Part shown: positions 3,986 to 26,914 of the stretch, in pieces | Numbering within the stretch: position 1 is the first letter of the stretch | How the letters are laid out: every line of letters starts with the position of its first letter | Assembly: GCA_020249925.1 (NCBI GenBank) | Contig: JADCER010000005.1 | Location: 248,001-312,000 of the forward strand | DNA length: 64,000 nt | Reading direction: 5' to 3' | Source of the DNA: Roseomonas sp. | Lineage (GTDB): Bacteria > Pseudomonadota > Alphaproteobacteria > Acetobacterales > Acetobacteraceae | Program-made: the position numbers and the translations under genes | Notes under the pieces: generated by a model | What the model was told of the DNA's origin: nothing | What the model saw: only the letters and a program-made list of their open reading frames with translations | Database searches by the model: none

Positions 3986-4354
3986 GGGCGGGTATGCTCC
4001 GCAAGCTTGAGCATGGGCGGGCGCATGTTGAAGATGGCGGCCGTTTGGCATGCGCCCGATAAAGCGGCACCAGGTGCTGGCCAAGCCGGCACCCGGCCGA
4101 TCCGTGGCAGTCCAGGTGGAAAGCCCTGATCCCCAGCCGATTGTAAGGCGCATCCCAGCACCGGGGGACCGGGCTTAGCACCGCTGGCAATCTTTGCTCT
4201 TGACGAAAGGCCTAGGCGCCCCGCAACCTTCCCATGTCAAAGACCGAAAGCCGGCCAAGATCGGTTCGGCCGCCGAGACGCAATGAACAAGGGCGGTGTC
4301 TGGTGGTTCAGGCTGCCAGGAACACCCCGGACGTCCATGAGGGAGGACCTGAAG

Positions 4355-5635
4355 ATGAATTGGACCAAGCGATCATTATTGGGGTTGGCGGGCGCCTTTG
4401 CCCTTTCCTGGGGGCTGAGCGCCCCGGCAGCGGCGCAGCAGCAGCCGCCCATTCGCATCGGCATTCTGGTTGCCCTGGAAGGCGCCTTTGCCGCGGGCGG
4501 GCGCGATGCCGTACGCAATGTGGAATTGGCACTGCGTCAGGTGAATCATACCGTCGCCGGCCGGCGCATCGAAACCATCGTGGCGCCCACGGATACCCGC
4601 CCCGATACGGCCGTGCGTCAGGCGCGCAAGCTGATCGAACAGGATCGCGTGGATTTCATCATTGGCCCGCTTTCCGGTTCGGAAGGTATCGCCATTCGTG
4701 ACTACGCCAAAACAATCCCCGATCGTACCATCATCAATGGCATTTCCGGTGCGCTGGAAATGACCTGGGTTGACCCCGCGCCGAATGTCTTCCGCTTCAA
4801 CCTGGACGGCGCGCAATGGGGCAGCGGGCTTGGCACCTATGTGGTGCGCAACAAGGGCTGGCGCCGCATCGCGACTGTCTCCGCGGATTATTCCTTCGGC
4901 TATACCAATTTCCTTGGCTTCGCCGTTGATTTCTGCCGCGCCGGCGGCACGATTGTGCAGCGTTTTTGGGTGCCGCTGGGTGCTGCTGATTTCGGCGGCG
5001 TCATTGCGCAATTGCCGGATAATGTGGATGCCATCTATCTCGGCATGGGTGGCACGGATGCGATCAACTTCCTCAATCAATGGCAGCAGGCCGGTGCCGG
5101 CACGCGGTTGATCGGCGGTACCATCATGGCCGACCAGACCGTGCTTTCCGCCCGCGGTCGCGCCAAGGATGCGCTGATCGGCACGCCCACTTCCGGCCCG
5201 CTTGCGGAAGATAATCCCGATCCAGCCTGGCAGAATTACGTGCGGCTCTATCGCGAAGCCTTCCCTGCGAATGAGCGTTTCAATAGCCCATCGCTCTTCG
5301 GCGTTGGCTATTTCATCGCGACTTCCGCCGCCATTGCTGGGCTGAACGCGGTTAATGGTGATCTGAGCGACGGTCAGCGTCGGTTCAATGCGGCGCTTTC
5401 CTCGCTCAAGCTGGCCACACCACTTGGTGAGGTGAGCCTGAATGAGAACCGTCAGGCAACGGGCACGGTATTCGTGAACGAAGTTGCGGAAGGCCCGGGG
5501 GGCACCTTGGTGAACCGCATGGTGGCGCGCGTGGATGGGGTGAACCAGACCCTAGGCATGACCGCCGAGCAGTTCCGTGCGATGGGCCTGCCTTCCCGCA
5601 CCAACCCTGATTGCCGCGCCTTGGGCGGGGGCTGA
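4355..5635 (+). CDS. Branched-chain amino acid-type ABC transporter substrate-binding protein
   Basis: A 426-residue type I periplasmic binding protein. A signal peptide (about residues 1-28, ending SAPAAAQ) precedes the PIRIGILVALEGAFAAGGRDAVRNVELAL start typical of LivK-like proteins. FIIGPLSGSEGIAIRDYA follows at the ligand hinge. It delivers ligand to the LivHM permease encoded next. The context (molybdenum hydroxylase and hydrolases) argues for a non-amino-acid ligand, perhaps aromatic, heterocyclic or carboxylate; this is inference. ATG 4355 is preceded by GGGAGGA (4341-4347); an upstream extension of the frame to 4283 lacks a site. A strong hairpin directly follows the gene. Confidence 0.92.
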   Translation: MNWTKRSLLGLAGAFALSWGLSAPAAAQQQPPIRIGILVALEGAFAAGGRDAVRNVELALRQVNHTVAGRRIETIVAPTDTRPDTAVRQARKLIEQDRVDFIIGPLSGSEGIAIRDYAKTIPDRTIINGISGALEMTWVDPAPNVFRFNLDGAQWGSGLGTYVVRNKGWRRIATVSADYSFGYTNFLGFAVDFCRAGGTIVQRFWVPLGAADFGGVIAQLPDNVDAIYLGMGGTDAINFLNQWQQAGAGTRLIGGTIMADQTVLSARGRAKDALIGTPTSGPLAEDNPDPAWQNYVRLYREAFPANERFNSPSLFGVGYFIATSAAIAGLNAVNGDLSDGQRRFNAALSSLKLATPLGEVSLNENRQATGTVFVNEVAEGPGGTLVNRMVARVDGVNQTLGMTAEQFRAMGLPSRTNPDCRALGGG

Positions 5636-5652
5636 TCCAAGATGATGGCAGC

Positions 5653-5686
5653 GTGACTCCGGCGAAACTTTTTTCGCCGGAGTCAC
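5653..5686 (+). promoter_or_regulatory. Strong intra-operon hairpin between receptor and permease genes
   Basis: Perfect 15-base arms (5653-5667 and 5672-5686) with a 4-base loop CTTT start 17 bases after the stop codon of the receptor gene. The stem has a GC-rich base and an AAA/TTT top. No trailing T-run is present, so it is more likely an mRNA-stabilising or attenuating element that raises the receptor:permease ratio than a full terminator. Confidence 0.7.
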
Positions 5687-5815
5687 GGTTGGCCTTATCG
5701 CTTCTGGCCTAAGCCCCATGCCCGCTTCCAGCCGCCACTCCTGTGCGGTTGGAACAAGGATTTGGGGGCTTGTGCCGCGGCCCTGCCTTTCCCAGCGCAT
5801 CATGATGGAGCAGCC

Positions 5816-6829
5816 ATGACAGAATTCACGCGACGCCATCCGCTTTGGTCGCTGATCATTGTCGTGCTGGTGGCGCTGCTGCTCTGGCTTATTCTTGCGC
5901 CATGGACACCGGGTGTGGAGGCGGTGCTGGGGCGCAAACGTGTTTTTCTGAATGCGATCTTTGGGGGACTGACGCTTGGCGCGCTGTATTTCCTGGTCGG
6001 TTCCGGCTTCACGCTGATTTTCGGACTGATGCGCAATGTCAATCTTGCGCATGGGTCACTTTATTTGCTCGGCGGCTATATCGGCTATGTCGTCTCCAAC
6101 GTGACAGGGGAATGGTGGATCACGCTGCCGGTGGTCTTTATTGTAGTCGCCTTGCTAGGCCTATTGCTGCAGCACCAGGTGTTTCGCCGCATGGAAGGGC
6201 AGGAACTGCGCCAGACCATGGTGACGATTGGCCTTTCGGTGGTGCTGGCTGATCTGATGCTTTGGGTTTGGGGCGGGCAATCCTATACGCTGCAAACCCC
6301 GCAATGGCTGACGGGGCCAGCAACCTTGCCAATTGTTGTGGGTACGGATCGCAGCGGCAATCCGGTCTATATGCGCTTTCCGCAGGTACGCATTGCCATC
6401 CTGGTCATGGCTATCATCATTGGCGTCGGGATGTGGCTGGTGCTCAATCGCACACGTCTTGGCATGTTGATCCGTGCAGGCGTTGATGACCGTGAAATGC
6501 TGACAGCATCCGGTGTGCGCATCCATTATGTCTTCCTCGCCGTCTTCGGTTTCGGCGCGGGGCTTGCGGGCATAGCGGGCGTTGTTGGGGGCACTTTCCA
6601 ATCCCTTGCCCCGGGTGAGGATACGCGATTCCTATTGGCAAGCCTTGTCGTGGTGATTGTGGGCGGCATGGGGTCCATACCCGGTGCGGCGCTTGGCGCG
6701 CTCATTATCGGGTTGGTTGAACAAATCGGGCTTGTCTATGCGCCAACCTATTCCGTCGTATTCACATTTCTGATCATGGCCCTGGTGCTGGCATTCCGCC
6801 CGCAGGGCTTGATGGGAAGCAACCGATGA
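5816..6829 (+). CDS. LivH-type ABC transporter permease
   Basis: A 337-residue polytopic membrane protein. After a first hydrophobic segment (about residues 11-28) comes the family pattern NAIFGGLTLGALYFLVGSG with GLMRNVNLAHG, then repeated hydrophobic segments, the GMLIRAGVDDREMLTASGV cytoplasmic coupling loop, and the LLASLVVVIVGGMGSIPGAALGALIIG signature. It forms the membrane channel together with the LivM-type protein encoded next. ATG 5816 has GGAG (5807-5810) five bases upstream; the frame is open from 5762 but that start has no site. The N-terminal extra transmembrane segment is somewhat longer than in E. coli LivH. Confidence 0.92.
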   Translation: MTEFTRRHPLWSLIIVVLVALLLWLILAPWTPGVEAVLGRKRVFLNAIFGGLTLGALYFLVGSGFTLIFGLMRNVNLAHGSLYLLGGYIGYVVSNVTGEWWITLPVVFIVVALLGLLLQHQVFRRMEGQELRQTMVTIGLSVVLADLMLWVWGGQSYTLQTPQWLTGPATLPIVVGTDRSGNPVYMRFPQVRIAILVMAIIIGVGMWLVLNRTRLGMLIRAGVDDREMLTASGVRIHYVFLAVFGFGAGLAGIAGVVGGTFQSLAPGEDTRFLLASLVVVIVGGMGSIPGAALGALIIGLVEQIGLVYAPTYSVVFTFLIMALVLAFRPQGLMGSNR

Positions 6830-6842
6830 AGGGGCGGGCGCC

Positions 6843-7922
6843 ATGGCGGTGAATGACGCGCCGCGCTCAGGCGGCCTGGATGCTCCTTTGCTAGGCAGCG
6901 GTTTTGGTCGCGTGCCGGCGGCCTATTGGGCGATTGGCTTCATCCTGCTGATCATGCCTGTATTCGCCGGTAATTTCTGGCTGTTTCAGATTTTCGGTTG
7001 GTCCTTTTGTCTTGGCATCATTGCGCTGTCGCTGATGTTCCTGGCCGGCTATGGCGGCATGGTCAGCCTGGTGCAGATGACCGTTGCGGCATTGGCTGGA
7101 TATGCGGTCGCCATCCTTGGCACTTCGGGCGTGCAGCAGATCAGCCTTGGCATGCCCTGGTGGCTGTACATTCCCTTGGCAATCATCATCGCGGCGGTTT
7201 TCGCAACCCTGGTCGGCGCGCTGGCGGTGCGGACCGAGGGCATTTACACCATCATGATCACGCTGGCGATTGCCAGTGCCTTCTTCTATTTCACACGCCA
7301 GAACTACGATATCTTCAACGGCTATAATGGCTTCAACTTTGTCGTACCGCCGCGCCTTTTTGGCGTGGATTGGCGCCAGCCAACCGCGTTCTATTATCTG
7401 AGCCTTGTCATGGCGGCGCTATGCTATTTGGCCGTTCTTTATGTTGCGCGCTCACCCTTCGGCTTGGCCCTGCAAGGGGTCCGCGATAATCCGCGGCGCA
7501 TGGCAGCCATGGGCTTCAATGTCACTGCGCATCGCATCGCCGCTTACACGTTTTCCGGTGTGATTGCAGCGATTGGTGGCATTCTGTTGGTGTGGCAAAA
7601 CACGCAGGTAGCGCCCTTTACCGCCGGCATTCCCGCGGTGATTGATATTCTGATCATCGCGGTGATTGGTGGCATAAGGCGCCCCATCGGCCCCTTTGTG
7701 GGTGCCTTCATCTATGTGCTGCTAAGCACCTTCAGCCCCGATGTGCTTTCAAGCTTTGGTCTTTCAACGGAACGCTTCAAGCTGATTGTCGGGCTTGGCT
7801 TCCTGGCCGTGGTCTTCTTTTCCCCTGATGGCGCCTTGGGTCTTTGGGATCGTTGGCGCGAAAGGCAGCGCAAGAATCTCGACCCACTGACGGGGCGGCC
7901 AAAAGCGGCGGGGGCCGCATGA
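6843..7922 (+). CDS. LivM-type ABC transporter permease
   Basis: A 359-residue membrane protein, partner of the LivH-type permease. Family features include LMFLAGYGGMVSLVQMTVAALAGYAVA, VRTEGIYTIMITLAIASAF, the coupling-helix region SPFGLALQGVRDNPRRMAAMGFNV, and VIDILIIAVIGGIRRPIGPFVGA. About eight to ten hydrophobic segments are visible. A C-terminal tail with DRWRERQRKNLDP is cytoplasmic by charge. It starts 13 bases after livH-like and overlaps the next gene by ATGA, so translation is probably coupled. Confidence 0.92.
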   Translation: MAVNDAPRSGGLDAPLLGSGFGRVPAAYWAIGFILLIMPVFAGNFWLFQIFGWSFCLGIIALSLMFLAGYGGMVSLVQMTVAALAGYAVAILGTSGVQQISLGMPWWLYIPLAIIIAAVFATLVGALAVRTEGIYTIMITLAIASAFFYFTRQNYDIFNGYNGFNFVVPPRLFGVDWRQPTAFYYLSLVMAALCYLAVLYVARSPFGLALQGVRDNPRRMAAMGFNVTAHRIAAYTFSGVIAAIGGILLVWQNTQVAPFTAGIPAVIDILIIAVIGGIRRPIGPFVGAFIYVLLSTFSPDVLSSFGLSTERFKLIVGLGFLAVVFFSPDGALGLWDRWRERQRKNLDPLTGRPKAAGAA

Positions 7923-8728
7923 ATATCGCAGCGCCCAACCCGCCCTTGATCGAACGCATCGGCGCTGCCGGTGCGGGCAATGCGCTGGAACTGCGCGGTG
8001 TCACCAAGCTTTTTGGCGCACTTTCTGCGATTGCTGATATCACCATGACCGTGGAAGCGGGTGAAAGACGCGCGGTGCTCGGATCAAATGGTGCGGGCAA
8101 GACCACCTTGTTCAATTGCGTCACGGGCGATTTCCTGCCGAGTTCCGGTACCATCCGTTTGTTTGGTGAGGATGTGACGGAGTTTCCCGCGCATGAACGC
8201 ATCCGGCGCGGCCTTCGGCGTACCTATCAGATCTCCTTGCTTTTCGGCGGCCTCAGCGTTGCCGATAATGTCTATCTGGCGTGCCGCGGTGTCAGCCGCA
8301 ATCGCTTTTCCCTGCTGCGGCCACGGCGCGGGGACCCATTATTGACACGCTGTGAGGAATTGATCGAAGCCGTACACCTGACCGAGGTGCGGCAAAAGCT
8401 GGTGAGTGAATTGAGCTATGGCCAGCAGCGCCAGCTTGAAATCGCGCTTGCCCTTGCTGGCGCGCCGCGGCTTATTCTGTTTGATGAACCCGCTGCCGGG
8501 CTTTCACCAACCGAACGGGCGGAACTCATCGCAATCCTCACCAACATGCCGCCGCATATCGGCTTCATCATCATCGAACATGACATGGATGTTGCGCTGC
8601 GCGTCGCTCAGCGTGTGACCATGATGCATAATGGCCGCGTCTTCAAGGAAGGCACGCCTGCGGAGATCGAGGAAGATCCGCAAGTGCAGGAACTCTATCT
8701 TGGGGATGGCCGCCATGCGCATGCCTGA
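7919..8728 (+). CDS. LivG-type ABC transporter ATP-binding protein
   Basis: A 269-residue ATPase. The Walker A is GSNGAGKTT, the signature is LSYGQQRQLEIALALA, Walker B is LILFDEPAAGLSP, and the H-loop is IIEHDMDV. The BPD-type C-terminus (GTPAEIEEDPQVQELYLG) is typical of LivG. It energises import by the LivHM-type permease together with the second ATPase, which here is part of a fusion protein. The start ATG overlaps the upstream stop (ATGA at 7919-7922). Confidence 0.92.
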   Translation: MNIAAPNPPLIERIGAAGAGNALELRGVTKLFGALSAIADITMTVEAGERRAVLGSNGAGKTTLFNCVTGDFLPSSGTIRLFGEDVTEFPAHERIRRGLRRTYQISLLFGGLSVADNVYLACRGVSRNRFSLLRPRRGDPLLTRCEELIEAVHLTEVRQKLVSELSYGQQRQLEIALALAGAPRLILFDEPAAGLSPTERAELIAILTNMPPHIGFIIIEHDMDVALRVAQRVTMMHNGRVFKEGTPAEIEEDPQVQELYLGDGRHAHA

Positions 8729-10913
8729 GAAAACGGGTCCTGCCGCGCTTGAGATTCGCGGGCTGAATGTCTTCTACGGCGCAAGTCATGCCTTGCAAGG
8801 CGTTGATCTGCGGCTGGATGCCGGGGCGCTTTCCGTTGTTGGTCGCAATGGCATGGGCAAGACCACGCTCTGCAAGGCCATCATGGGCCTGGTGCCGGTT
8901 GCCTCCGGTTCCATCAGTTTTCATGGTCAGCCCTTGGTCGGGCGCTCGCCAGCCGATATCGCGCGCGCAGGCATCGGTTATGTGCCGCAGGGCAGAAGGC
9001 TCTGGCGTTCCCTGACCGTCGAAGAACATTTGAAAATGGTGGAGCGCAAGGGCGGCGCCTGGACCATTGAGCGGATTTTCTCCACCTTCCCGCGCCTTGC
9101 GGAGCGGCGCGGCAATGGTGGCGCTCAGCTTTCAGGCGGTGAGCAGCAAATGCTCGCCATCAGTCGCGCCCTGCTGATGAACCCTAAGCTGCTGGTGATG
9201 GATGAGCCGACCGAAGGTCTGGCGCCGGTCATTGTCGCGCAGCTTGAGGAATTGCTGGTGCAACTCGCGCAAGATGGCGAGATTGATGTGCTGGTGATCG
9301 AACAGAATATCGGTGTCGCCTGCGCCATTGCGGAAACGGTCGCCATTATGGTGAATGGCCGCATCAATCGCAGCGCACCGGCGCGTGAATTGGCCGCCGA
9401 TCGGGAATTGCAGCAACGCCTGCTGGGCGTTGGCCGCCATGGTCATGAGGATATTCCGGCAGAGCCAACACAAAGCACCGCCGCAGCGCAAGAAAGCGCA
9501 GTCGCAACACCTGGCGGGCCGGTGAAGATTTATGTTTCAAACCCAACGCCCCCCACGCGCTGGTCGAAGCCTGTTCCGGTTGAAGTGCTGGAACGCACAG
9601 CGCGTATACTGACTGCGCAACCGTTGATGGGCGCAGCTGCTGCACAAGCCGAAATCCGCCCACTTTCTATGCCGGGCGCTGAGGTGATTCTGGTGGCCGG
9701 TACACTTGATACCAAAGGGGCAGAGCTTCGCTTCATGCGCGACCAGATCCGCGCTGCTGGCTTGCCTGTAAGGCTTGTTGATCTGTCCACCACGGGCGGC
9801 CATTCCGGCGCCGATATTCCGGCCCATCAAATCGCTGCCTTTCATCCGCGCGGCGCAGCAGGCGTCTTTACTGGAGATCGTGGGGCGGCCGTCGCCGGCA
9901 TGACGGAGGCTTTCAAGCGCTGGATAGAACGGCAAACCGGCATTGCCGGCATTCTTTCCGCCGGTGGTTCCGGCGGCACGGCGCTTGTCGCGCCTGCGAT
10001 GCGCGCGCTACCCATCGGCATACCCAAGCTGATCGTTTCCACCATCGCAAGCGGTGATGTGCGCGCCTATGTTGGCGCAACCGACATCACCATGATGCAT
10101 TCAGTGGCCGATGTGCAGGGGCTGAATGCAATCACCGAGGACATTCTTGGCAATGCTGCCCAGGCCATGATCGGTATGGTGCAGGCGCGCCGCACCGCAA
10201 AACCGCGCCAGCTGCAACGCCCCGCCATCGCCCTTTCCATGTTTGGTGTCACCACGCCTTGCATCCGCCAGATTGCAGACGCACTCAATAAGGAATGGGA
10301 CTGTCTTATTTTTCATGCCACCGGCATTGGCGGGCAATCAATGGAAAAATTGATTGACTCGCAAAAGGTTGTCGGCGTGATTGATATGACTACGACCGAA
10401 ATCGCCGATATGCTGTTCGGTGGTATTTTGCCGGCCACGGCAGACCGTTTTGGCGCTGTCATCCGTACGCGCTTGCCCTATATCGGTTCTGTCGGCGCGG
10501 TGGATATGGTGAATTTTGGTCCTCCTGACACGGTGCCTGAGGCCTATCGCGGCCGCCAATTCTATCAGCATAATCCGCAGATCACGCTGATGCGTACGAC
10601 AGCAGCTGAGTGCACCGCCATTGGACAATGGATTGCAGCGCGATTGAATTTGATGGATGGGCCAGTGCGCTTCTATCTGCCCGAAGGCGGTGTATCGGCG
10701 CTGGATGCCCCAGGCAAAGCGTTTCACGATCCTGCAGCGCGGGAGGCCTTGTTCCGTGCCATGGAAGCGACCTTCCGTCCTGGCCCCAATCGCCGTTTGC
10801 TGCGGGTGCGCCACCACATCAATGATGCCGCCTTTGCGGCCATGGTGGTCGCGGAATTCCAAAATCTGCTCGGCCCAGCGCGGCCTTCACGCAAAAGGCA
10901 GGGGGTGCCGTGA
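8715..10913 (+). CDS. LivF-type ABC ATPase fused to a Tm-1-like (UPF0261) domain
   Basis: A 732-residue fusion. Residues 1 to about 242 form a full LivF ATPase: Walker [10 protein letters not shown] (43-51), signature LSGGEQQ (139-145), Walker B LLVMDEP (159-165). A linker of about 80 residues, rich in Ala, Pro and Gln, leads to a UPF0261/Tm-1 N-terminal domain from about residue 322 ([23 protein letters not shown], then [37 protein letters not shown], and [15 protein letters not shown]). In tomato Tm-1 this ATP-binding domain is joined to a TIM-barrel domain; here the TIM-barrel partner is the next gene, overlapping by GTGA. The start is ATG 8715, with GGGGA at 8702-8706; ATG 8706 and 8721 are alternatives. 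Stand-alone LivF is about 235 residues, so the fusion is unusual. The Tm-1 domain's activity is unknown. Confidence 0.9.
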
Positions 10914-11749
10914 ATATTCGGGTAGAATCTCGCAGCGCCATTCTGGAACGCTTTCGCGCCATGATCGCGCGTGGCGAACCGATTATCGGTGGCGGCGCTG
11001 GCACAGGGCTCTCTGCGAAATGCGAGGAAGCCGGCGGCATCGACTTGATCGTGATCTATAATTCCGGGCGGTTTCGCATGGCTGGCCGCGGGAGCCTGGC
11101 GGGCTTGATGCCCTATGGTGACGCCAATGCAATTGTGATGGATATGGCGGCCGAGGTGCTGCCAGTTGTGCGCCGCACGCCGGTCCTTGCCGGTGTGTGC
11201 GCGACCGATCCATTCCGGCTGATGGATGTTTTTCTGGATGAGGTAAAGCGTGTGGGTTTCGCTGGCGTGCAGAACTTCCCGACCGTTGGCCTGATCGATG
11301 GGATTTTCCGCCAGAATCTGGAAGAAACCGGCATGTCCTATGCGCTGGAAGTAGATATGATTGCGCTGGCGCAGCGCAAGGACCTGCTGACAACGCCCTA
11401 TGTTTTCAATGAAGCAGACGCGAAGGCCATGGCAAATGCCGGCGCTGACATCATCGTTGTGCATCTTGGGCTGACCACCGGCGGCAGCATTGGCGCGGAA
11501 ACGGCGCTACGGCTTGCCGATTGCCCACCCATTGTGGATCGTATCGCAAAAGCAGCCTTGGCAGAGAAACCTGATGCCATCATCCTGGTGCATGGTGGGC
11601 CGGTGGCCATGCCGGAAGATGCCGACTTTATCCTGAAGAATTGCATCCATTGCCACGGCTTTTATGGCGCTTCTTCCATGGAACGCCTGCCAGCCGAAAT
11701 CGCATTGACCGAACAGACCCGTGCCTTCAAGCGCATCACGGGTCGTTGA
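10910..11749 (+). CDS. TIM-barrel protein of the PEP hydrolase-like/Tm-1 C-terminal family
   Basis: A 279-residue cytoplasmic protein of the family often labelled phosphoenolpyruvate hydrolase or TIM-barrel signal transduction protein (PF09370). Visible features are [52 protein letters not shown], then [24 protein letters not shown], and the C-terminal [12 protein letters not shown]. It corresponds to the C-terminal half of plant Tm-1, whose N-terminal half is fused to the LivF ATPase encoded just upstream. Start GTG 10910 overlaps the upstream stop. Its reaction has not been established as far as I know; the gene order suggests a catalytic or regulatory complex with the ABC ATPase fusion. 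Confidence 0.88.
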
Positions 11750-11767
11750 ACAGAAAAGGGAACGAGC

Positions 11768-14494: not shown

Positions 14495-14932
14495 ATGGCA
14501 CGGGTCTATATCAGCTCGGTCATTGATGCGCCGGTTGGACGCGTTTGGGAACGCGTACGCGACTTCAACGGGCTGCCGCGTTGGCTGCCGCTGGTGCGCG
14601 AAAGCCGCATCGAAAATGGCGAACCTTCGGATCGCGTTGGGTGTGTGCGGGATTTTCGGCTGCAGAATGGCGATAGGCTGCGCGAACAGCTTCTGGCGCT
14701 TTCCGATTATGATTATTTCTGTACCTATTCCATTCTTGAAAGTCCGATGCCGCTGACAGCCTATATTGCTACGCTGCGTCTGACCCCAATCACGGATGGC
14801 GATCGAACTTTTGCTGAATGGTCCGCGGAGTTTGACTGCGCTGCGGAGCTTGCCGAGGAACTGGTGACCAATATCGGCCAGAATGTCTTTGAGGCCGGCT
14901 TCACCGCACTAAAGCGTCAGATGGTGGCCTGA
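14495..14932 (+). CDS. SRPBCC (START-like) family protein, first of two paralogues
   Basis: A 145-residue cytoplasmic protein with a Bet v 1/START-like helix-grip fold of the polyketide cyclase 2/MxaD type: an N-terminal strand VYISSVIDAPVGRVWERVRDFNGLPRWLP, then DRVGCVRDF and LREQLLALSDYDYFCTYSILESPMPL. Such proteins bind hydrophobic ligands. In carbon monoxide dehydrogenase clusters a related SRPBCC protein (CoxG) links the molybdenum enzyme to the membrane and quinone, which makes a similar role possible here. The ATG follows the SPFH stop codon with no gap. It shares much of its sequence pattern with the next gene. Confidence 0.85.
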   Translation: MARVYISSVIDAPVGRVWERVRDFNGLPRWLPLVRESRIENGEPSDRVGCVRDFRLQNGDRLREQLLALSDYDYFCTYSILESPMPLTAYIATLRLTPITDGDRTFAEWSAEFDCAAELAEELVTNIGQNVFEAGFTALKRQMVA

Positions 14933-14933
14933 C

Positions 14934-16174: not shown

Positions 16175-16175
16175 T

Positions 16176-18289: not shown

Positions 18290-18292
18290 GCC

Positions 18293-19315: not shown

Positions 19316-19316
19316 T

Positions 19317-20195
19317 ATGGCAATAAGGCGCAGCATTGGCGGCATTGACAGTCCAGAGGCGCTGGCGCGCGCGCTGCGTGATGCGCAGTATATCGCTGAT
19401 GAAGGTCTCGCCACTGCGGCTTACCTTGCGCTCGCTTTGGGAAAACCTTTGCTGCTTGAGGGCGCACCTGGTGTCGGCAAGACCGAAGCGGCAAAGGCGC
19501 TTTCCGCCATCCTTGCGCGAGAGCTTGTGCGGCTCCAAGCCTATGAAGGCATCGATGCCGCTGCTGCGATGTATGAATGGAATTTCCCGCGCCAAATGCT
19601 GGCCATTCGGCAGGCGGGCGATTCCTACATCAATCTGTATGGTGATGATTTTCTGATTGCGCGCCCCTTGCTTCTGGCACTGCAACGGCCCCGCGAAAGG
19701 CTATTGCTGATTGATGAAATTGATCGGTCAGACCATGAGTTTGAGGCTTTCCTGCTTGAATTCCTCTCTGATTTCAGCCTGTCCATCCCGGAACGCGGCA
19801 CAATACGCGCAAGCGAACCGCCTGTAGTGGTCATGACATCCAATCGCACGCGGGAGTTGCATGAAGCCTTGCGGCGGCGCTGCGTTTATCACTGGATTGG
19901 CTATCCGGACCCGCAATTGGAGGCGCAGATTGTGATGATGCGCGCATCATCTGTTGCGCGCGACACGGCGCATAGGGTGGTTGCTGCAGTTGGCCGGTTG
20001 CGCAAGGAACCCCTGGCAAAGCCGCCTGGCGTTGCTGAAACGGTTGAATGGGCGGAAGCAGCCACCTTGTTGAATGCACAGGGTGCAAGCTGGCCCGCGG
20101 CCTTTGCGCGTGCGATTGGCGTCGTGCTGAAGGATCAGGATGACCTAGCCTATATTGCGCTACGGCTTGATGCTGTTCTGAAGGGGGCGGCATGA
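19317..20195 (+). CDS. MoxR-family AAA+ ATPase (CoxD-like)
   Basis: A 292-residue AAA+ protein. Walker A is GAPGVGKTE, Walker B is LLLIDEIDR, the sensor region is VVVMTSNRTRELHEALRRRCVYHWI. MoxR proteins next to a VWA gene and a CODH-type enzyme (CoxD/CoxE) insert sulfur or copper into, or otherwise mature, the molybdenum active site in known systems. The same role for this hydroxylase is inferred from gene order. It begins one base after the large-subunit stop and overlaps the VWA gene by ATGA. Confidence 0.9.
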   Translation: MAIRRSIGGIDSPEALARALRDAQYIADEGLATAAYLALALGKPLLLEGAPGVGKTEAAKALSAILARELVRLQAYEGIDAAAAMYEWNFPRQMLAIRQAGDSYINLYGDDFLIARPLLLALQRPRERLLLIDEIDRSDHEFEAFLLEFLSDFSLSIPERGTIRASEPPVVVMTSNRTRELHEALRRRCVYHWIGYPDPQLEAQIVMMRASSVARDTAHRVVAAVGRLRKEPLAKPPGVAETVEWAEAATLLNAQGASWPAAFARAIGVVLKDQDDLAYIALRLDAVLKGAA

Positions 20196-21301
20196 TCCCG
20201 CCTGCGCTGACGCCCTTCCTCGCTTTCCCGCAAGCGCTTCGTATGCAGGGCTTTGCGGCAGCGACGGAACAAACGGAAGGTTTCCTTGCTGCTGTCGGGT
20301 TGCTGGGGCCGAGGTCAATCCACGATCTGCGCCGCGCCGCCCATGCCGTTTATGGACCGGCGCCGGAACGGATTGAGGATTTCAACTCTGTCTTTGATGC
20401 AATCTTTCTTGGCAGGGCGTGCCTCGCACCCGCGGAGGCAGAGGGTGAAGAAGCGCCACGTGCCTTTGATGCGGGCGAGATTGAATTGTTGCCGCAGCCT
20501 GAAGATGAGACACCCTCTGGCCAAGAGGCGACGGCGCTGGAGCGATTGTCAACGCGTCCAATCAATGTGGTGGATGAGGAGACAGTGCTGCGCGCCTTTG
20601 CCCGGGCCTTGCCAGGTGCTGTGCCGCGGCGGCGTTCGCGCCGCCTTCGTGCCGGCAGCGGCGCATTGGCGGATCCGCGCCGTGCCTTCCGCGAATTGCT
20701 CCGCCGTGATGGGGAACTCAGCCGATTGCCGCGGCGCCATCGCCTGCAACGCCAGCGACGCGTACTTCTGCTGATTGATGTTTCGGGCAGCATGAAGGCG
20801 GGCACGGATGGTGCGCTCAGGCTTGCGCATGCCATGGTGCAATCGCTTGAACGGGCAGAGGTCTTCACCATCGGTACGCGTCTCACGCGCGTGACGCGCG
20901 CCTTGCGCTACAGGAATCGGGAACAGGCGCTGACACTCGCCGCCGGGCTTGTGGCGGATTGGGATGGCGGCACGCGGTTGGGCGAGGCGCTGGGTATCTT
21001 TCTTTCCGTGCCACGTTTCGCAAGTTTCGCACGCGGGGCGGTGGTAATCATTCTTTCCGATGGCTTGGAACGCGGCGGGCCTGACGCTTTGGTGCAGGCC
21101 ATGCAGCGGATGCGTGGTCTCGCTTGGCATATTCTGTGGCTGAGCCCCCTGGCGAATACGCCGGGCTATAAACCAGAGACAACCGCCATGCGTGCCATCC
21201 TGCCCTATATTGATAACTTGGCCGATGGCAGCAGCGCCATTGCCATTGCACGTTCCTTGGTGGGGTCGGCGCCAATAGCGCGCGCTGGAACAAGCGCATG
21301 A
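20192..21301 (+). CDS. VWA domain-containing protein (CoxE-like)
   Basis: A 369-residue protein. The C-terminal half holds a VWA domain with a perfect MIDAS motif (LLIDVSGSMK), then a metal-site Thr in DWDGGTRLG and the VVIILSDGLERGG segment. The N-terminal half is helical with an acidic stretch (EAEGEEAPRAFDAGEIELLPQPEDE) and a basic RRRSRRLRAGSG stretch, as in CoxE. It acts with the MoxR ATPase encoded upstream in enzyme maturation. There is no signal peptide, so it is cytoplasmic. It overlaps the next gene by ATGA. Confidence 0.9.
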   Translation: MIPPALTPFLAFPQALRMQGFAAATEQTEGFLAAVGLLGPRSIHDLRRAAHAVYGPAPERIEDFNSVFDAIFLGRACLAPAEAEGEEAPRAFDAGEIELLPQPEDETPSGQEATALERLSTRPINVVDEETVLRAFARALPGAVPRRRSRRLRAGSGALADPRRAFRELLRRDGELSRLPRRHRLQRQRRVLLLIDVSGSMKAGTDGALRLAHAMVQSLERAEVFTIGTRLTRVTRALRYRNREQALTLAAGLVADWDGGTRLGEALGIFLSVPRFASFARGAVVIILSDGLERGGPDALVQAMQRMRGLAWHILWLSPLANTPGYKPETTAMRAILPYIDNLADGSSAIAIARSLVGSAPIARAGTSA

Positions 21302-22179
21302 GGATCATCGACAGCCATTTTCATGTCTGGCGTCAGGCGGATCTTCCCTGGCTAATGGGACCCATGCAGCCGCGGATTTTTGGTGGCTATGAAGCGATTA
21401 GGCGCGATTATCCCATCAGCGAATACCTGGCCGATATTGCCGACACCGGCGTTGAAAAGGCGGTCTATGTCCAGGCAAATTGGCCAAATGATAAGGCAGT
21501 GGAGGAAGTTGCCTGGATAGAACGTCTGGCGCTTGAAACCGGCTGGCCGCATGCAAGCATCGCTTATGCCGATATGACGGTTGAGGATGTTCGGCCTTTT
21601 TTGGACCGTCTTGTACGCCATCCGCGACTGCGCGGCATTCGCCAGCAATTTCATTGGCACCCAAATCCGCAATATCGCTTTGCCCTACATGCGGATCTCT
21701 GCCGCGACAGGCAGGTTCAGCGCAATATGGCACGGCTTGCCGATTACGCGCTGACCTTCGATTTGCAGGTGTTTGCTGAACAAATGGCGGGTGCCGCTGA
21801 ATTGGCGCAAGCCTGCCCGCGCGTAACCTTCGTTTTGCAGCATGCCGGCATGCTGGAAGATCTTTCGGCCAGCGGGCGCGATGATTGGCAAAAGGGCATG
21901 GCGGCCTTGGCCGCGTGCCCGAATGTGATGGTGAAGCTTTCCGGCCTTGGCACTTTTCTGCATCGCCTGGATCCGGCGCATATCACCCGGATTTACGTAC
22001 AAACCCTGCAGCTTTTCGGGCATGCGCGCTGCCTTTGGGGTTCGAATTTCCCGATCGAGAAACTCTGGACCGGTTACGCCCCTTTACTTGCGGCCCATCG
22101 CAGCGCCATGCGCGATCTGGATGAAGCGGCGATACGTGGCCTGTTGTTTGACAATGCCAGCCGGGTCTACCGGCTTTAG
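21298..22179 (+). CDS. Amidohydrolase family (amidohydrolase 2) TIM-barrel hydrolase
   Basis: A 293-residue protein of the 2-pyrone-4,6-dicarboxylate lactonase/amidohydrolase 2 type. The HxH metal motif is DSHFHVW (His7 and His9). Other conserved parts are GIRQQFHWHPN, VLQHAGM, VKLSGLGTF and LWGSNFPIEKL with the catalytic-position Asn/Asp region at the C-terminus. Relatives hydrolyse lactones such as L-rhamnono-, fucono- or PDC lactone, or decarboxylate aromatic acids. With the two other lactonase-like proteins encoded next, a lactone-opening step in the pathway is a reasonable inference. Confidence 0.88.
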   Translation: MRIIDSHFHVWRQADLPWLMGPMQPRIFGGYEAIRRDYPISEYLADIADTGVEKAVYVQANWPNDKAVEEVAWIERLALETGWPHASIAYADMTVEDVRPFLDRLVRHPRLRGIRQQFHWHPNPQYRFALHADLCRDRQVQRNMARLADYALTFDLQVFAEQMAGAAELAQACPRVTFVLQHAGMLEDLSASGRDDWQKGMAALAACPNVMVKLSGLGTFLHRLDPAHITRIYVQTLQLFGHARCLWGSNFPIEKLWTGYAPLLAAHRSAMRDLDEAAIRGLLFDNASRVYRL

Positions 22180-22191
22180 GGAGGAATGAGC

Positions 22192-23040
22192 ATGGCTCTC
22201 GAAATCAAGCTGCTGGATTACGGCGATATCGAGCTGGAATCGAGCTTTCTGGTTCTCGCGCGGGATTGCGGGCGCATCCGCCGCGTGCCGGTTTATGGCT
22301 TTCTGATCATGGGCGGGCGTTATCCGATTGTGGTCGATACCGGTTATCGCGATAACGCCATCATGGAAACGCTTGGCATGCGCGGCCTGCAATTCCATGA
22401 AAACATGATCGAACGCCAGCTTGCCCGCTTTGGCGTGAAGCCGGGTGATGTGCGCTATGTACTGCATACGCATTTGCATATTGACCATGCTGGCAAGGAT
22501 GATCACTTCCCAATGAATACCACGGTAGTGGTCAATCGCCGTGAATTGGAATGCTCGGTTTCGGGTCTTATGCATCCACAATATCCGAAGCCAGATATCC
22601 AGCATTTGATCGAAAGGCTGCATACGCGCCATGCGCTGCGCTTTGAGGATCTGGAGCTTTCAGGACCCGTGGAGATCATGCCCGGGGTTGTGCTGGAAGC
22701 GGCCAATGCACATACGGAAGGGTCCATGAATGTCCATGTTGAAACAGCCGAAGGGCGTGCCACGATCTGTGGCGACGTGATCTATGATTTCAATGATCAG
22801 ATCGTGGAGCCGGTTTTCCAGGTGAGCCTCCATGAACCGCAGGTCACCGGCAATCACGCAGGATCGAAGCGGGGCGAGAAGGCGGCAATCAAGAAGCTGC
22901 TCAACTCCTCAAAATTCCTGCTGCCCGTGCATGACAAACCAGCCAAGATTGAGCATGGCCAGGTGATTGGCCGACTTGAGCTGCAGGTGCCGGGACCGGT
23001 TGCACAAACCGTTGCGCGCCGGGATTGGTTTCCGGTCTGA
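22192..23040 (+). CDS. Metallo-beta-lactamase fold hydrolase (AHL-lactonase-like)
   Basis: A 282-residue protein with the zinc-binding motif HLHIDH (residues 94-99, preceded by His92), further ligands in EAANAHTEGSMNV and GDVIYDFNDQ, and a C-terminal His region. It resembles the N-acyl homoserine lactonase family of the MBL fold, which opens lactone rings; quorum quenching is not implied. ATG 22192 is preferred over ATG 22186 because AGGGAGG (22178-22184) is at the right distance only for 22192. No signal peptide is present. Neighbouring lactonase-type genes suggest a common pathway. Confidence 0.85.
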   Translation: MALEIKLLDYGDIELESSFLVLARDCGRIRRVPVYGFLIMGGRYPIVVDTGYRDNAIMETLGMRGLQFHENMIERQLARFGVKPGDVRYVLHTHLHIDHAGKDDHFPMNTTVVVNRRELECSVSGLMHPQYPKPDIQHLIERLHTRHALRFEDLELSGPVEIMPGVVLEAANAHTEGSMNVHVETAEGRATICGDVIYDFNDQIVEPVFQVSLHEPQVTGNHAGSKRGEKAAIKKLLNSSKFLLPVHDKPAKIEHGQVIGRLELQVPGPVAQTVARRDWFPV

Positions 23041-23051
23041 GGGAGGCTGCC

Positions 23052-24620
23052 ATGGCTCATGTCGCGCTGGATCCGGGTTTCCGCCGACTGATTGATGAAC
23101 ATGCCCCCGTGCTTCAGGTGGGCAGCGGCTTCACCTTCACCGAGGGGCCGATCTGGCACCCGAGCGAACATTATCTGCTTTTCTCGGACATGCCGGCGGA
23201 TATGCGCCGCCGCCTTGATCGTGCCGGCGTGCGAGAGATTGAGCGGCCATCCAATAAATCAAACGGGCTCACCTATGATGCAGATCTCAATCTGCTGATT
23301 TGTGAGCATGCAACCTCATCCGTTGTGCGTGTGCGCCCCAATGGGCTGCGAGAGGTATTGGCCAGCCATTATCAGGGGCGGGAATTGAATTCGCCCAATG
23401 ATCTCTGCGTGAAGTCGGATGGCGCGATCTATTTCACCGATCCCTGGTATGGCCGTATGCCTGTTTATGGCGTTGAACGCCCGCGCCAGCTTGGGTGGCA
23501 GGGCGTATTTCGCATTAGGCCAGGCGCGCAGCCGGGTGAGGAACCTCAGCTTGTCGTGGATCGCTATATCTTCAGCCAACCAAATGGCATTTGCTTTTCG
23601 CCCTGCGAGAAATTTCTTTATGTGAATGATACCGAACAAGCGAATATCCGTGCGTTTGATGTCGGTTCGGATGGAATGCTGCGTAATGGGCGCATCTTCG
23701 CCTCTGGCCTGCGTGATAGCCTTGCCCCCGGCCTGCCCGATGGCATGAAATGCGATACTGATGGCAATGTCTGGTGCACCGGGCCTGGCGGCATTTGGGT
23801 TTATGCGCCGTCCGGCAAGCTGATGGGCAAGGTCGCCATTCCGGAAATGCCAGCCAATCTGCATTGGGGCGGGGCGGATTGGCGCACGCTTTATGTCTGC
23901 GCCACCACTTCGGTCTATGCCATTCCCGTCAAAATCGGCCCGCGCCACGAACCCTTCATGGCAGTGCGCCAAACCGCGCGCGAAACTACGCCACAACAGG
24001 ATGAGGTTTTGCGGCTTGATCCATCGCGCTGCGCGCTCATCATTCAGGATATGCAGAATGATGTGGTGATGGATGGTGGCGCCTTCGCGTCTTCCGGCAG
24101 CCCTGATCATTGCCGACAACAAAATGCCATTCCCAACATCGCCCGGCTTGCTGCGCATTGTCGCAGTCGCGGCATTCCGGTGATCCATGTCTGGTTTGTC
24201 AGGCGCGCTGATGCCCGCGACATGACCCTGAATGCGCCACTATTTGAAGGTTGCGTGGACGCCAATGCCATGATCGAAGGCACATGGGGCGCGGAACCTG
24301 TACCAGGGCTTGAAGCGCAGCCGGGTGATCACATCCTCCGCAAGGCCCGCATGAGCGCCTGGGAAGGTACGGCGCTTGAACGCATCCTGAAGGCCGAAGG
24401 CCGCGACATCATTATCGAAACCGGCGCATGGACGAATATGAGCATCGAACACACAGCCAGAACTGGCGCCGATAAGGGCTATATCATGGTTATCCCGGAA
24501 GATGGCTGTTCCACCATGAATGCGGATTGGCACCGCGCTTCCATTGACTATGCCATGCGCAATGTCGCGATGGTGACTTCGACAGATGAGGTATTGCGCG
24601 CCCTGGGGTCAGCAATCTGA
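23052..24620 (+). CDS. SMP-30/gluconolactonase-like domain fused to an isochorismatase-like domain lacking the Cys nucleophile
   Basis: A 522-residue fusion. Residues about 20-300 are an SMP-30/LRE beta-propeller: FTEGPIW with metal-ligand Glu31, LNSPNDLCV with Asn/Asp ligands, and GLPDGMKCDTDGNVW. From about residue 325 an isochorismatase/cysteine hydrolase domain follows: catalytic Asp333 (IIQDMQNDVV), Lys431 (LRKARMSAW), but Ser464 (WTNMSIEHTAR; codon AGC at 24441-24443) where the nucleophilic Cys of the Asp-Lys-Cys triad is expected. The second domain may thus be inactive as a classical amidase, or use Ser. The first should be a lactonase or sugar-acid hydrolase. Start ATG 23052 follows GGGAGG. 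The cytosolic location is inferred from the lack of a signal peptide. Confidence 0.88.
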   Translation: MAHVALDPGFRRLIDEHAPVLQVGSGFTFTEGPIWHPSEHYLLFSDMPADMRRRLDRAGVREIERPSNKSNGLTYDADLNLLICEHATSSVVRVRPNGLREVLASHYQGRELNSPNDLCVKSDGAIYFTDPWYGRMPVYGVERPRQLGWQGVFRIRPGAQPGEEPQLVVDRYIFSQPNGICFSPCEKFLYVNDTEQANIRAFDVGSDGMLRNGRIFASGLRDSLAPGLPDGMKCDTDGNVWCTGPGGIWVYAPSGKLMGKVAIPEMPANLHWGGADWRTLYVCATTSVYAIPVKIGPRHEPFMAVRQTARETTPQQDEVLRLDPSRCALIIQDMQNDVVMDGGAFASSGSPDHCRQQNAIPNIARLAAHCRSRGIPVIHVWFVRRADARDMTLNAPLFEGCVDANAMIEGTWGAEPVPGLEAQPGDHILRKARMSAWEGTALERILKAEGRDIIIETGAWTNMSIEHTARTGADKGYIMVIPEDGCSTMNADWHRASIDYAMRNVAMVTSTDEVLRALGSAI

Positions 24621-24695
24621 AGATACTGGGACGTTTGGCTGACACCTTCTCCACTACACAAATAGATGAAGCCTAATCATTCGGGATTGATAAAA

Positions 24696-25514
24696 ATGCG
24701 CTTTGTCCTTTGCAATGAGGTACTGCGTCATTTGCCTTTTAATGAACAGGCACAGCTTTCTGCAGCCTTAGGCTATGACGGTTTGGAGGTTGCACCATTC
24801 ACGCTCCATCCTGATGCACCGCATTGCTTGAGCAAGGCTATGCGCAACGAATTTCGTCGTATGGCTGAAGATGTCGGCCAGCCTATTGCCGGTCTGCATT
24901 GGCTTCTCGTTGCTCCTTCTGGGCTTTCCATCACGGAAGCCAGTCTTCATGACAAGACCTGTGATGTCATGCGTGCACTGATTGATCTTGCGGTTGACCT
25001 GGGAGCAACTTATCTGGTGCATGGTTCTCCTGCACAGCGTGAGGTAACGTTTCCGGGCGATGCCGAACGCGCTGAAGCCGCATTGTGCAAGGCCGCCCTT
25101 CATGCACAATCCGCCGGCCTGATATACCTTCTGGAACCGCTCGATCCGGGCCAGACAAATTGGGCAAGCTCTTTGGCTGAGGCGCTGGATATCGTCGCAC
25201 GCATCGGCAATCCCGCCTTGTGCAGCATGTTGGATGTAAGCGCCGCCGGGAATGGAGAGGCCGAAGCACCTGACACGCTTCTGCGACGCCACATGGCCAG
25301 CGGCCTGATCGCCCATGTGCATCTGAATGATCGCAATCGTCGCGCGCCTGGCCAAGGGCAGGATCAATTCGCCCCAATCCTTCGCGCGCTCACCGAAACT
25401 GGCTATCAGGGCATATGCGGTGTTGAACCCTTTGAATATCATCCAGACCCGGCAGCCTGCGCGGCACGCGCCATTGGCTATTTGCGCGGTATTGAGGAGG
25501 GGCTCTCAACGTGA
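24696..25514 (+). CDS. Sugar phosphate isomerase/epimerase-like TIM-barrel protein
   Basis: A 272-residue xylose isomerase-like TIM barrel (AP endonuclease 2 superfamily). Typical segments are LGYDGLEVAPFTL, GLHWLLVAPSGL, LVHGSPAQR, LLEPLDPGQTNWA, MLDVSAAG, IAHVHLNDRNRRAPGQGQ and GVEPFEYHPDP, which supply the usual Glu, Asp and His metal ligands. Members isomerise or epimerise keto sugars and similar hydroxy-ketones. ATG 24696 is chosen for its family-like MRFVLCNEVL start; ATG 24666 would add ten unusual residues. It ends overlapping the GTG start of the enolase-superfamily gene. Confidence 0.82.
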   Translation: MRFVLCNEVLRHLPFNEQAQLSAALGYDGLEVAPFTLHPDAPHCLSKAMRNEFRRMAEDVGQPIAGLHWLLVAPSGLSITEASLHDKTCDVMRALIDLAVDLGATYLVHGSPAQREVTFPGDAERAEAALCKAALHAQSAGLIYLLEPLDPGQTNWASSLAEALDIVARIGNPALCSMLDVSAAGNGEAEAPDTLLRRHMASGLIAHVHLNDRNRRAPGQGQDQFAPILRALTETGYQGICGVEPFEYHPDPAACAARAIGYLRGIEEGLST

Positions 25515-26914
25515 AGTTTCAGTTTCTCGAAACAGAGCGATTTGAATGGCGCTTTACCTTGCGTATGCCTTTTCGCTTTGGTGTGATCACTGTCAGGGAT
25601 GGCATTCAGGCTGTGGTGCGTGTGCGCATTCGCGATGTGACAGGAAGGGAAGGCTTTGGCGTGGCTGCCGAGACCCTTGCGGCGAAATGGTTCGACAAGG
25701 ATGCAGCCCTGACTGATGCCGATAACCAGCATCAGCTACGCCGTACGCTTGAGATTGCGGAGGCGCAGTCGCTCGCCGCGGGCTTCAATACGGCCTTCGG
25801 CCATTACGCCGATGGCTATAACGCATATGTTGCTGCCTGCGCGGCGGAAGGGCTCAATCCTCTTGTGGCCAGTTTTGGCCGCGCGCTTTGGGACCGCGCA
25901 GCCTTCGATGCCCTGCTCCGTCTTGCCGGTCTTTCCTTTGATGCGGGTCTGCGCGCTAATCTTGGCGGCATGGCGCCACATGTGGTCATTCCTGATCTTG
26001 CGGATTTCGATTTCGCTGCGATGCTGGCACATGTACCAAAGCCGGCCCGGTTGCACGCGCGCCATACGGTTGGCTTGGTTGACCCCATCACCAGCGCGGA
26101 TTTGACGGACGCAGTGGATGATGGTCTGCCCGAAACACTGGAACAGGTTTTGGCCACCTATCGCCATCTCTATTGGAAGCTCAAGGTCAGCGGCAATATC
26201 GCGGAAGATGTCGCGCGGCTTTGCCGTATCGCTGCCGTATTGGATCGCTCGCATGGCTATCACGCAACGCTTGACGGCAATGAACAATATGAGGATGCGG
26301 AGAGCGTATTGGCGCTATGGCGCGCGATAGAGGCTGAGCCAAGATTGACACGGCTGCGCGCTTCCATCTTGTTCATCGAACAGCCTATCAAGCGCTCGCA
26401 TGCACTGCAGGAAAGCATCACGGATATCGCCGCTGCCCGGCCCGTGATAATTGATGAGAGTGATGGCGCGCTGGATGCATTCCTAGTCGCCAAAGGGCTC
26501 GGCTATAGCGGGGTTTCCAGCAAGGCATGCAAGGGCATTTGGCGATCCCTGATCAACTTGGCGCGTTGCCGGCAATGGGGCCAGGGCTATTTCATGTCAG
26601 CCGAAGATCTTACAACTCTAGCCGGGCTTTGCGTGCAGCAAGATCTTGCCTTGGTCAGTGCCCTCGGCCTTGCCCATGTGGAACGCAATGGCCATCACTT
26701 CATAGATGGCTTTGCAGGCCGCCCGGCAGCCGAAGCGCAGGCCTATCGGGCAGCGCATCCCGATCTTTATGAGGATACGTCACATGGTCCGCGGCTTCGC
26801 ATTCGTGCAGGGTTGCTTGACATCGGCAGCATTGCAACACCCGGCCTGGGCAGCGCCCCCTGGCCGGATGTTACGGCCATGCAGCCCATGGAAAAAGCTG
26901 CTTGGCCGAAATGA
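25511..26914 (+). CDS. Enolase-superfamily (mandelate racemase-like) protein
   Basis: A 467-residue protein with a two-domain enolase-superfamily layout. The N-terminal capping domain begins ERFEWRFTLRMPFRFG. In the barrel, KLK (Lys223 and Lys225) is the KxK catalytic motif, and metal ligands fit Asp255 (LDGNEQY), Glu290 (FIEQPI) and Asp315/Glu316 (IDESDG); Lys338 or Lys341 may be the second base. Members abstract a proton alpha to a carboxylate and dehydrate or racemise acids. It is longer than common dehydratases (about 370-400). Start GTG 25511 overlaps the upstream stop. It is the last gene of the long co-directional block. Confidence 0.8.
   Translation: MKFQFLETERFEWRFTLRMPFRFGVITVRDGIQAVVRVRIRDVTGREGFGVAAETLAAKWFDKDAALTDADNQHQLRRTLEIAEAQSLAAGFNTAFGHYADGYNAYVAACAAEGLNPLVASFGRALWDRAAFDALLRLAGLSFDAGLRANLGGMAPHVVIPDLADFDFAAMLAHVPKPARLHARHTVGLVDPITSADLTDAVDDGLPETLEQVLATYRHLYWKLKVSGNIAEDVARLCRIAAVLDRSHGYHATLDGNEQYEDAESVLALWRAIEAEPRLTRLRASILFIEQPIKRSHALQESITDIAAARPVIIDESDGALDAFLVAKGLGYSGVSSKACKGIWRSLINLARCRQWGQGYFMSAEDLTTLAGLCVQQDLALVSALGLAHVERNGHHFIDGFAGRPAAEAQAYRAAHPDLYEDTSHGPRLRIRAGLLDIGSIATPGLGSAPWPDVTAMQPMEKAAWPK

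Follow-up and report, generated by a model that had tools for sequence, protein, structure and literature searches.

A run of about 20 co-directional genes in Roseomonas sp. raises the question of whether genes for an importer, a flotillin-like protein and a molybdenum (Mo) hydroxylase serve a single pathway. The genes lie in the window analyzed here, a 64,000-nucleotide stretch of DNA (assembly GCA_020249925.1, contig JADCER010000005.1, positions 248,001 to 312,000 of the forward strand), in a host genome of 3.94 Mb. The initial annotation had joined them into one uptake, hydroxylation and ring-opening pathway held at the membrane. Judged by gene order in other genomes, genes 1–18 (window positions 4355–24620) form one conserved system, probably an undescribed one for the uptake and breakdown of an aromatic-type compound. 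A search of the open-licence literature found no description of the operon, of its LivF~Tm-1 fusion or of UPF0261 function; as subscription journals lay mostly outside that search, the absence is weak evidence. The 18 genes are given below in their order; SBP denotes the solute-binding protein, PEPH a PEP-hydrolase-like TIM barrel, MBL a metallo-beta-lactamase fold, and a tilde two parts of one open reading frame (ORF).

Gene 1, 4355–5635, plus strand: SBP, LIV-type (Peripla_BP_6, 1.4e-54; nearest solved structure 4zpj, then 4ey3 and 4evq)
Gene 2, 5816–6829, plus strand: LivH-type permease (BPD_transp_2; start chosen from start analysis)
Gene 3, 6843–7922, plus strand: LivM-type permease (BPD_transp_2)
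Gene 4, 7919–8728, plus strand: LivG-type ATPase (ABC_tran, BCA_ABC_TP_C; start chosen from start analysis)
Gene 5, 8706–10913, plus strand: LivF~Tm-1 fusion (ABC_tran, UPF0261 and UPF0261_C in one ORF; the start may be 8631, 8706, 8715 or 8721)
Gene 6, 10910–11749, plus strand: PEPH, family of the second half of plant Tm-1 (PF09370, PEP_hydrolase, 1.1e-128; solved relative 2p10)
Gene 7, 11768–14494, plus strand: SPFH/flotillin protein of 908 residues with a hendecad-repeat arm (Flot; match to Flotillin-1, 9bq2; 44-residue repeat)
Gene 8, 14495–14932, plus strand: SRPBCC protein a (Polyketide_cyc2)
Gene 9, 14934–15380, plus strand: SRPBCC protein b (Polyketide_cyc2)
Gene 10, 15380–16174 (longest ORF from 15257), plus strand: CoxM-type FAD subunit (FAD_binding_5, CO_deh_flav_C)
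Gene 11, 16176–16649, plus strand: CoxS-type 2x[2Fe-2S] subunit (Fer2_2, Fer2; cysteines conserved)
Gene 12, 16646–18289, plus strand: CoxL1, first half of the Mo subunit (MoCoBD_1; best solved match 3hrd_A, the large Mo subunit of nicotinate dehydrogenase)
Gene 13, 18293–19315, plus strand: CoxL2, second half of the Mo subunit (MoCoBD_2; best solved match 3hrd_B; conserved Glu of KGPGE)
Gene 14, 19317–20195, plus strand: MoxR-type AAA ATPase (AAA_5; MadB-like below cutoff)
Gene 15, 20192–21301, plus strand: VWA CoxE-type protein (VWA_CoxE, 3.4e-45)
Gene 16, 21298–22179, plus strand: lactonase-like Amidohydrolase_2 protein (PF04909, Amidohydro_2; L-fucono-1,5-lactonase model 90.4 bits, cutoff 400)
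Gene 17, 22186–23040, plus strand: MBL lactonase-like hydrolase (Lactamase_B; HTHLHIDHAG conserved; nearest solved structures are N-acyl-homoserine lactone (AHL) lactonases and 4-pyridoxolactonase)
Gene 18, 23052–24620, plus strand: SGL (SMP-30) lactonase-like domain ~ isochorismatase-like domain (SGL and Isochorismatase in one ORF; Ser replaces the usual Cys)

Conservation of this set was assessed in two samples. A scan of named genomes seeded with the SPFH alignment recovered at least 573 relatives, of which the best 80 by SPFH similarity, about half of them Bradyrhizobium by title, were kept as named loci; the counts that follow are out of the 60 longer than 22 kb, with 20 loci under 22 kb left out. 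All 18 genes occur on one strand and in identical order in 54 of these 60 loci, and five more are without one or two of the genes. The clear exception to the order is a gammaproteobacterial metagenome-assembled genome (MAG; L164) with genes 6–10 only. LivF~Tm-1 is one ORF, and CoxL1 and CoxL2 are separate genes, each in 59 of the 60. By record title, the hosts include Roseomonas, Elioraea, Jannaschia, Maliponia, Hoeflea, Mesorhizobium, Bosea, Bradyrhizobium and Geminicoccaceae, and a Roseomonas sp. MAG encodes an SPFH protein identical to the window's. The second sample comprised 385 genomes of the host's class, chosen independently of gene order. SPFH matches at E 1e-30 were obtained in 49 of them and CoxL2 matches at E 1e-90 in eight. 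The six genomes with the strongest SPFH matches (E < 1e-170, the window's own included) are the six whose CoxL2 is at least 70% identical, and in each the two genes lie about 4 kb apart on one contig; the remaining two CoxL2 genomes (56–58% identity) gave no SPFH match at E 1e-30. The parts are thus not scattered among relatives, and for these 18 genes the single-system idea of the initial annotation is not refuted.

ORFs and likely starts place all 20 genes of the original block on the plus strand (4355–26914), with mostly 4-base overlaps to 18-base gaps between neighbors, which bears out the earlier description of some 20 co-directional genes, mostly overlapping by 4 bases or less than 20 bases apart. 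The exceptions are the SBP–LivH spacing of about 180 bases, an overlap between LivG and LivF~Tm-1 that spans 8 to 23 bases according to which start is used, and a gap of 45 bases between genes 18 and 19. Pfam likewise confirmed the families of the earlier part list up to gene 19, except that the large Mo subunit proved to be two genes and the last hydrolase an SGL–isochorismatase fusion. Between 4101 and 24100, neither promoter-like matches (4, against 8.7 in shuffles) nor terminator-like matches (23, against 21.1) exceeded chance, and Rfam and tRNA scans of the whole window returned no matches.

Some variation occurs within and around the conserved set. An AraC-type regulator gene is present in 57 of the 60 long loci and an iron-type alcohol dehydrogenase (Fe-ADH) gene in 25, both between SBP and LivH in the loci inspected. 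Neither is found there in the window (4200–5816), and both Elioraea loci are likewise without the AraC regulator at that place. Since most loci stop short within gene 18, the count for the SGL~isochorismatase fusion reached only 8 of the 60; 6 of the 12 flank sets show it as a single ORF, and Elioraea, Shinella and Yoonia each gave an uninterrupted match. Among the 12 pairs of flanks, no outside gene recurred in three or more genomes, and the flanks gave no substrate clue; the other recurrent frames, on the minus strand at the gene 18 and SBP positions, were interpreted as antisense frames. On a plasmid of Yoonia SS1-5, the 18-gene operon is extended, with genes for another LIV importer, an Fe-ADH, an aldehyde dehydrogenase and AraC, two short-chain dehydrogenase/reductase (SDR) genes and a gene of the fumarylacetoacetate hydrolase (FAH) family.

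Compared across other genomes, the system is modular. The 18-gene form with the Mo hydroxylase is here termed type I. Type II loci have the order LivH-LivM-SBP-LivG-LivF~Tm-1-PEPH-SPFH-SRPBCC-SRPBCC, together with an alpha/beta hydrolase (PcaD-like) and an Amidohydro_1 protein (Xaa-Pro-dipeptidase-like), both below cutoff, and have no Mo hydroxylase cassette. Among 20 stretches, this form is complete in 10, rearranged in one and cut by a contig end in one, the other eight being SPFH relatives without Tm-1. It also occurs on a Variovorax plasmid, and two type II loci (G084:C110 and G148:C159) are without PEPH. In type III (G044 and G075), the importer and Tm-1 are linked and unfused, and SPFH is absent. 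In type IV (G134), CoxM-S-L1-L2-MoxR-CoxE-Amidohydrolase_2 adjoins Tm-1, PEPH, a tandem SRPBCC protein and a CUT1-type importer with two TOBE_2-bearing ATPases, SBP_bac_1 and a permease just below cutoff. The hydroxylase cassette also occurs without Tm-1 in the examined stretches of Nonomuraea and Sinorhizobium BG8, and only 8 of 14 further family loci have an SRPBCC pair next to Tm-1/PEPH. In the haloarchaeon Salinigranum rubrum, a plasmid carries the four hydroxylase subunits (CoxL2 60% identical), with ABC importer genes, an SRPBCC gene and a gene of the cyclase family as neighbors.

The importer is complete. An SBP, two BPD_transp_2 permeases and two ABC ATPases are encoded together, so that all five components of LIV/HAAT importers (LivFGHMJ, UrtABCDE) are matched by family; in contrast to those systems, LivF is fused to Tm-1. 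The LivF part scores 214 bits to UrtE, and SBP, LivF and LivG all fall below the curated cutoffs of the named-importer models. Among the near solved relatives of the SBP, 4ey3 and 4evq presumably bind aromatics. In a predicted model, the fusion consists of the ABC ATPase domain, a low-confidence and probably disordered linker and the UPF0261/Tm-1 domain; a fold match to tomato Tm-1 was found, in a search whose coverage was chiefly the ABC domain plus a portion of Tm-1. The Tm-1 domain matches both UPF0261 models over their full length and above the curated cutoffs (202 and 282.8 bits, cutoffs 27), and a UPF0261 structure, 9mpy, was crystallized with acetovanillone, an aromatic ketone.

The TIM-barrel partner PEPH (PEP_hydrolase, 428 bits) adjoins Tm-1 here, and in a phylum-wide PEPH search Tm-1 stood beside it in 23 of 26 loci. 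To our knowledge, UPF0261 and its TIM partner are present in plants and fungi as well as bacteria, and what is known of them comes mostly from tomato Tm-1, a virus-resistance protein; no native role has been established for them. In plant and fungal Tm-1-like proteins, UPF0261 is joined to a TIM-barrel domain ('TBST'), whereas here it is joined to an ABC ATPase within an import operon; the excerpt consulted of a study of Tm-1-like proteins contains no occurrence of "ABC transporter" (PMC5028733). An identity of Tm-1 and its TIM partner with the acetovanillone kinase AcvAB/HpeHI was rejected on a comparison of descriptions, as the part of PMC9618137 consulted presents a kinase of the phenylphosphate-synthase type with parts of 71.2 and 40.6 kDa, from a family other than Tm-1. 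Pairs of Tm-1 and PEPH are also found on the symbiosis plasmids pNGR234a, pMLa and pSymA of NGR234, M. japonicum and S. meliloti; in two annotated records of such plasmids the neighbors of the pair are a Gfo/Idh/MocA oxidoreductase, a sigma-54 regulator and a cupin, and the NGR234 pair adjoins genes whose annotation is sugar transport. In two further loci (G053 and G130), Tm-1/PEPH/SRPBCC adjoin a CUT1-type importer, followed in G053 by DhaK and DhaL (Pfam); G130 is alike by sequence start.

The hydroxylase retains all domains of the xanthine oxidase family: the FAD and 2x[2Fe-2S] domains, the Mo cofactor-binding domains and the KGPGE Glu. This Glu, which we take to be catalytic, aligns with the Glu of 3hrd_B and is conserved among relatives. 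MoCoBD_1 and MoCoBD_2 lie in separate genes whose products match 3hrd_A and 3hrd_B almost end to end, the Mo subunit being cut at the same place as in nicotinate dehydrogenase. A frameshift as the source of the split was rejected, since the split recurs in 59 of the 60 long loci. The solved structures closest to the Mo subunits are those of nicotinate dehydrogenase and 4-hydroxybenzoyl-CoA reductase. In Eubacterium barkeri, nicotinate dehydrogenase (NdhFSLM) likewise has its Mo subunit in two proteins and separate FAD and 2x[2Fe-2S] subunits, a four-gene composition given in the consulted part of PMC10331938. It differs from the present enzyme in that the first Mo half has 547 residues here against 425 and in that MoxR, VWA and Amidohydrolase_2 genes follow here; judged from sequence, no sign of a nicotinate substrate was seen. 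Aerobic carbon monoxide dehydrogenase (cox) operons share similar subunit types and the MoxR and CoxE-type VWA genes, whereas the split large subunit and the AMRGFG motif belong to the present system. An identity with carbon monoxide dehydrogenase was rejected, as the large-subunit model scored 169.4 and 93.2 bits against a cutoff of 991.15.

Three hydrolases follow, from families that include lactonases (Amidohydrolase_2, MBL and SGL). In the isochorismatase-like domain, Ser473 stands in place of Cys in 15 of 15 sequences, in a region (TNxC) that we take to be the position of the usual Cys nucleophile. The domain was therefore rejected as a thiol amidase.

The SPFH protein shares with flotillins the Flot domain (111.5 bits, cutoff 27) and a profile match to Flotillin-1 (9bq2) upstream of a coiled-coil arm. 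In contrast to them, it carries an N-terminal hydrophobic segment and an arm of 44-residue repeats, and it scores 29 bits against a FloT cutoff of 700. The predicted structure is of low confidence (mean predicted local distance difference test score of 61). Because charged residues follow the hydrophobic segment, the arm is probably on the cytoplasmic side, and by its family the protein may be a scaffold. Each 44-residue unit is made of four hendecads; Tandem Repeats Finder detected no array in the gene despite the clear protein repeat. Measured by alignment between two fixed points in 81 proteins, arm length modulo 11 is 3 in 71 proteins, 0 in nine and 10 in one on a cut contig; an earlier pattern-anchor measure placed 66 of 67 arms in one class. 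The 20 distinct lengths (454–718) fall into two classes, 15 of them into one, a number reached in none of 20,000 random draws (maximum 9), although related sequences are not independent for such statistics. No other modulus from 5 to 18 behaves like 11. Among nine values from other SPFH proteins, those of G125, G039 (both copies), G062, G084 and G148 are 3, that of G418 is 0, that of the stand-alone G405 is 7, and that of the frameshifted G045 is 10.

These data are best read as membrane-located, import-coupled breakdown of an aromatic or heteroaromatic compound. On the sequence evidence, we consider it probable that genes 1–18 constitute one horizontally mobile, self-contained uptake-and-catabolism system, in which importer, Tm-1, SRPBCC proteins, Mo hydroxylase and hydrolases would operate with a flotillin assembly. 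Of the pathway first proposed, uptake, hydroxylation and hydrolysis are a fair reading of the enzymes, whereas ring opening, the substrate, the order of steps, the Tm-1 chemistry and the flotillin assembly with its scaffold role are what we infer. The data themselves show the gene content and its fixed order, the fusions, the co-occurrence, the modularity, the conserved motifs and the arm lengths quantized by hendecads. An aromatic substrate class is suggested, in each case indirectly, by 9mpy, by the nearest solved relatives of the SBP and by those of the Mo enzyme. The compound would be taken in by the LIV-type importer (SBP, LivH, LivM, LivG and LivF), whose LivF ATPase would bear an ATP-binding-type Tm-1 on a flexible linker. 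Through this tether, the compound is proposed to meet Tm-1 and its TIM partner at the cytoplasmic exit of the pump, where an ATP-dependent step would commit it chemically. SRPBCC a and b could then hold or process the Tm-1 product, and the split hydroxylase of nicotinate dehydrogenase type, matured by MoxR/VWA, would add a water-derived oxygen to the ring as a hydroxyl group. Opening and shortening of the product may fall to the three lactonase-like hydrolases and the isochorismatase-like domain. Pump and enzymes may be kept together by the long-armed flotillin, assembled on the cytoplasmic side and anchored in the membrane.

Several observations weigh against this reading. The foremost is that elsewhere Tm-1/TIM stands beside sugar-type importers, DhaK/DhaL or Gfo/Idh/MocA genes, a neighborhood that, for some members, speaks for a substrate resembling a sugar more than an aromatic. 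The Yoonia operon adds FAH and SDR genes, gene types that also occur in sugar-acid pathways, and the 9mpy protein is only 32% identical to the Tm-1 domain. SPFH and the hydroxylase are each dispensable in related loci, and their link is therefore not obligatory; moreover, the identity correlations can be explained by shared descent alone.

In the leading rival, the conserved operon would serve a compound resembling a sugar (a lactol, branched sugar or sugar acid), and the Mo enzyme would oxidize a cyclic hemiacetal to a lactone opened by the three lactonase-like hydrolases. Besides the families of these hydrolases and the CUT1, DhaK/DhaL, sugar-transport and Gfo/Idh/MocA neighbors, it is favored by one Fe-ADH of a sister operon that passes the 4-hydroxybutyrate dehydrogenase model (517.7, cutoff 500). 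However, the type I importer is LIV-type rather than sugar-type, with 4ey3 and 4evq near its SBP, the Mo subunits and 9mpy point to aromatic chemistry, and the 18 genes include no sugar kinase, dehydratase or aldolase; the sugar explanation is thus unlikely, if worth keeping in view. Independent units might instead travel together, an importer/Tm-1/SPFH part (perhaps a transport or stress module) and a hydroxylase cassette with hydrolases acting on different compounds. The type II loci without hydroxylase (10 of the 20 stretches), the lone cassettes of Nonomuraea and Sinorhizobium BG8 and the two class genomes with CoxL2 and no SPFH match favor such a separation, yet the type I combination and order are fixed across families, and the hydroxylase and Tm-1 modules meet again in G134 in another arrangement and with another importer, which makes it distinctly improbable. 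Detoxification or signal quenching, through uptake and destruction of a plant- or microbe-made lactone or heterocycle, would suit the AHL lactonase and 4-pyridoxolactonase likeness of the MBL protein and the many hosts in plant-associated genera (by record title), but 18 genes with a high-affinity-type receptor are costly and AHL cleavage would have no evident use for a Mo hydroxylase, so that this is very improbable. Homarine and trigonelline pathways were set aside as well, a literature listing having given nothing relevant by title and abstract start.

The reading of import-coupled aromatic catabolism can be extended to a membrane-anchored catabolic compartment with vectorial chemistry. A flotillin assembly, its arm grown in 11-residue steps, would surround an importer whose ATPase carries the first enzyme, and the product would pass to the split Mo hydroxylase in the same chamber. 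This extension is speculative, and we regard it as doubtful. If true, these operons would reveal the native function of the Tm-1 family. Apart from this extension, the operon would be an example of a metabolic enzyme joined to the ATPase of an ABC importer, of flotillins that serve one particular catabolic route and of a Mo hydroxylase with a split subunit among aerobic Proteobacteria; the 11-residue quantization of the SPFH arm offers a handle on size setting in flotillin assemblies. As the operon ties UPF0261 and its TIM partner to an importer and defined catabolic enzymes in culturable bacteria, their native role is directly testable.

The downstream limit of the system was set by the last two genes of the original block.

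Genes 19 and 20, 24666–26914, plus strand: an epimerase-like TIM barrel (AP_endonuc_2 by Pfam) and an enolase-type protein (by motifs)

Gene 20 has no Pfam match above the curated cutoff, and its best PDB match is no better than E 0.45; its motifs, which we take to be typical of the enolase superfamily, are conserved in 14 relatives. Of 18 matching genomes, 15 loci were listed, one of them the window's own, leaving 14 relatives. Gene 19 adjoins gene 20 in 12 of these 14 and a DUF993 gene lies within 1.5 kb in four, whereas gene 18 is there in none. The inclusion of genes 19 and 20 in the single system was accordingly rejected; because they form a conserved pair apart from gene 18, the 22-kb block was cut to 4355–24620.

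Two minor observations remain. In a one-contig genome (G045:C1), nearly all long operon genes are split into overlapping pieces, which resembles long-read sequencing error more than decay. Within the window, a DUF993 gene lies at 27888–29066 on the minus strand, and genes 19, 20 and DUF993 (24666–26914 and 27082–29066) probably belong to a separate sugar-type pathway.

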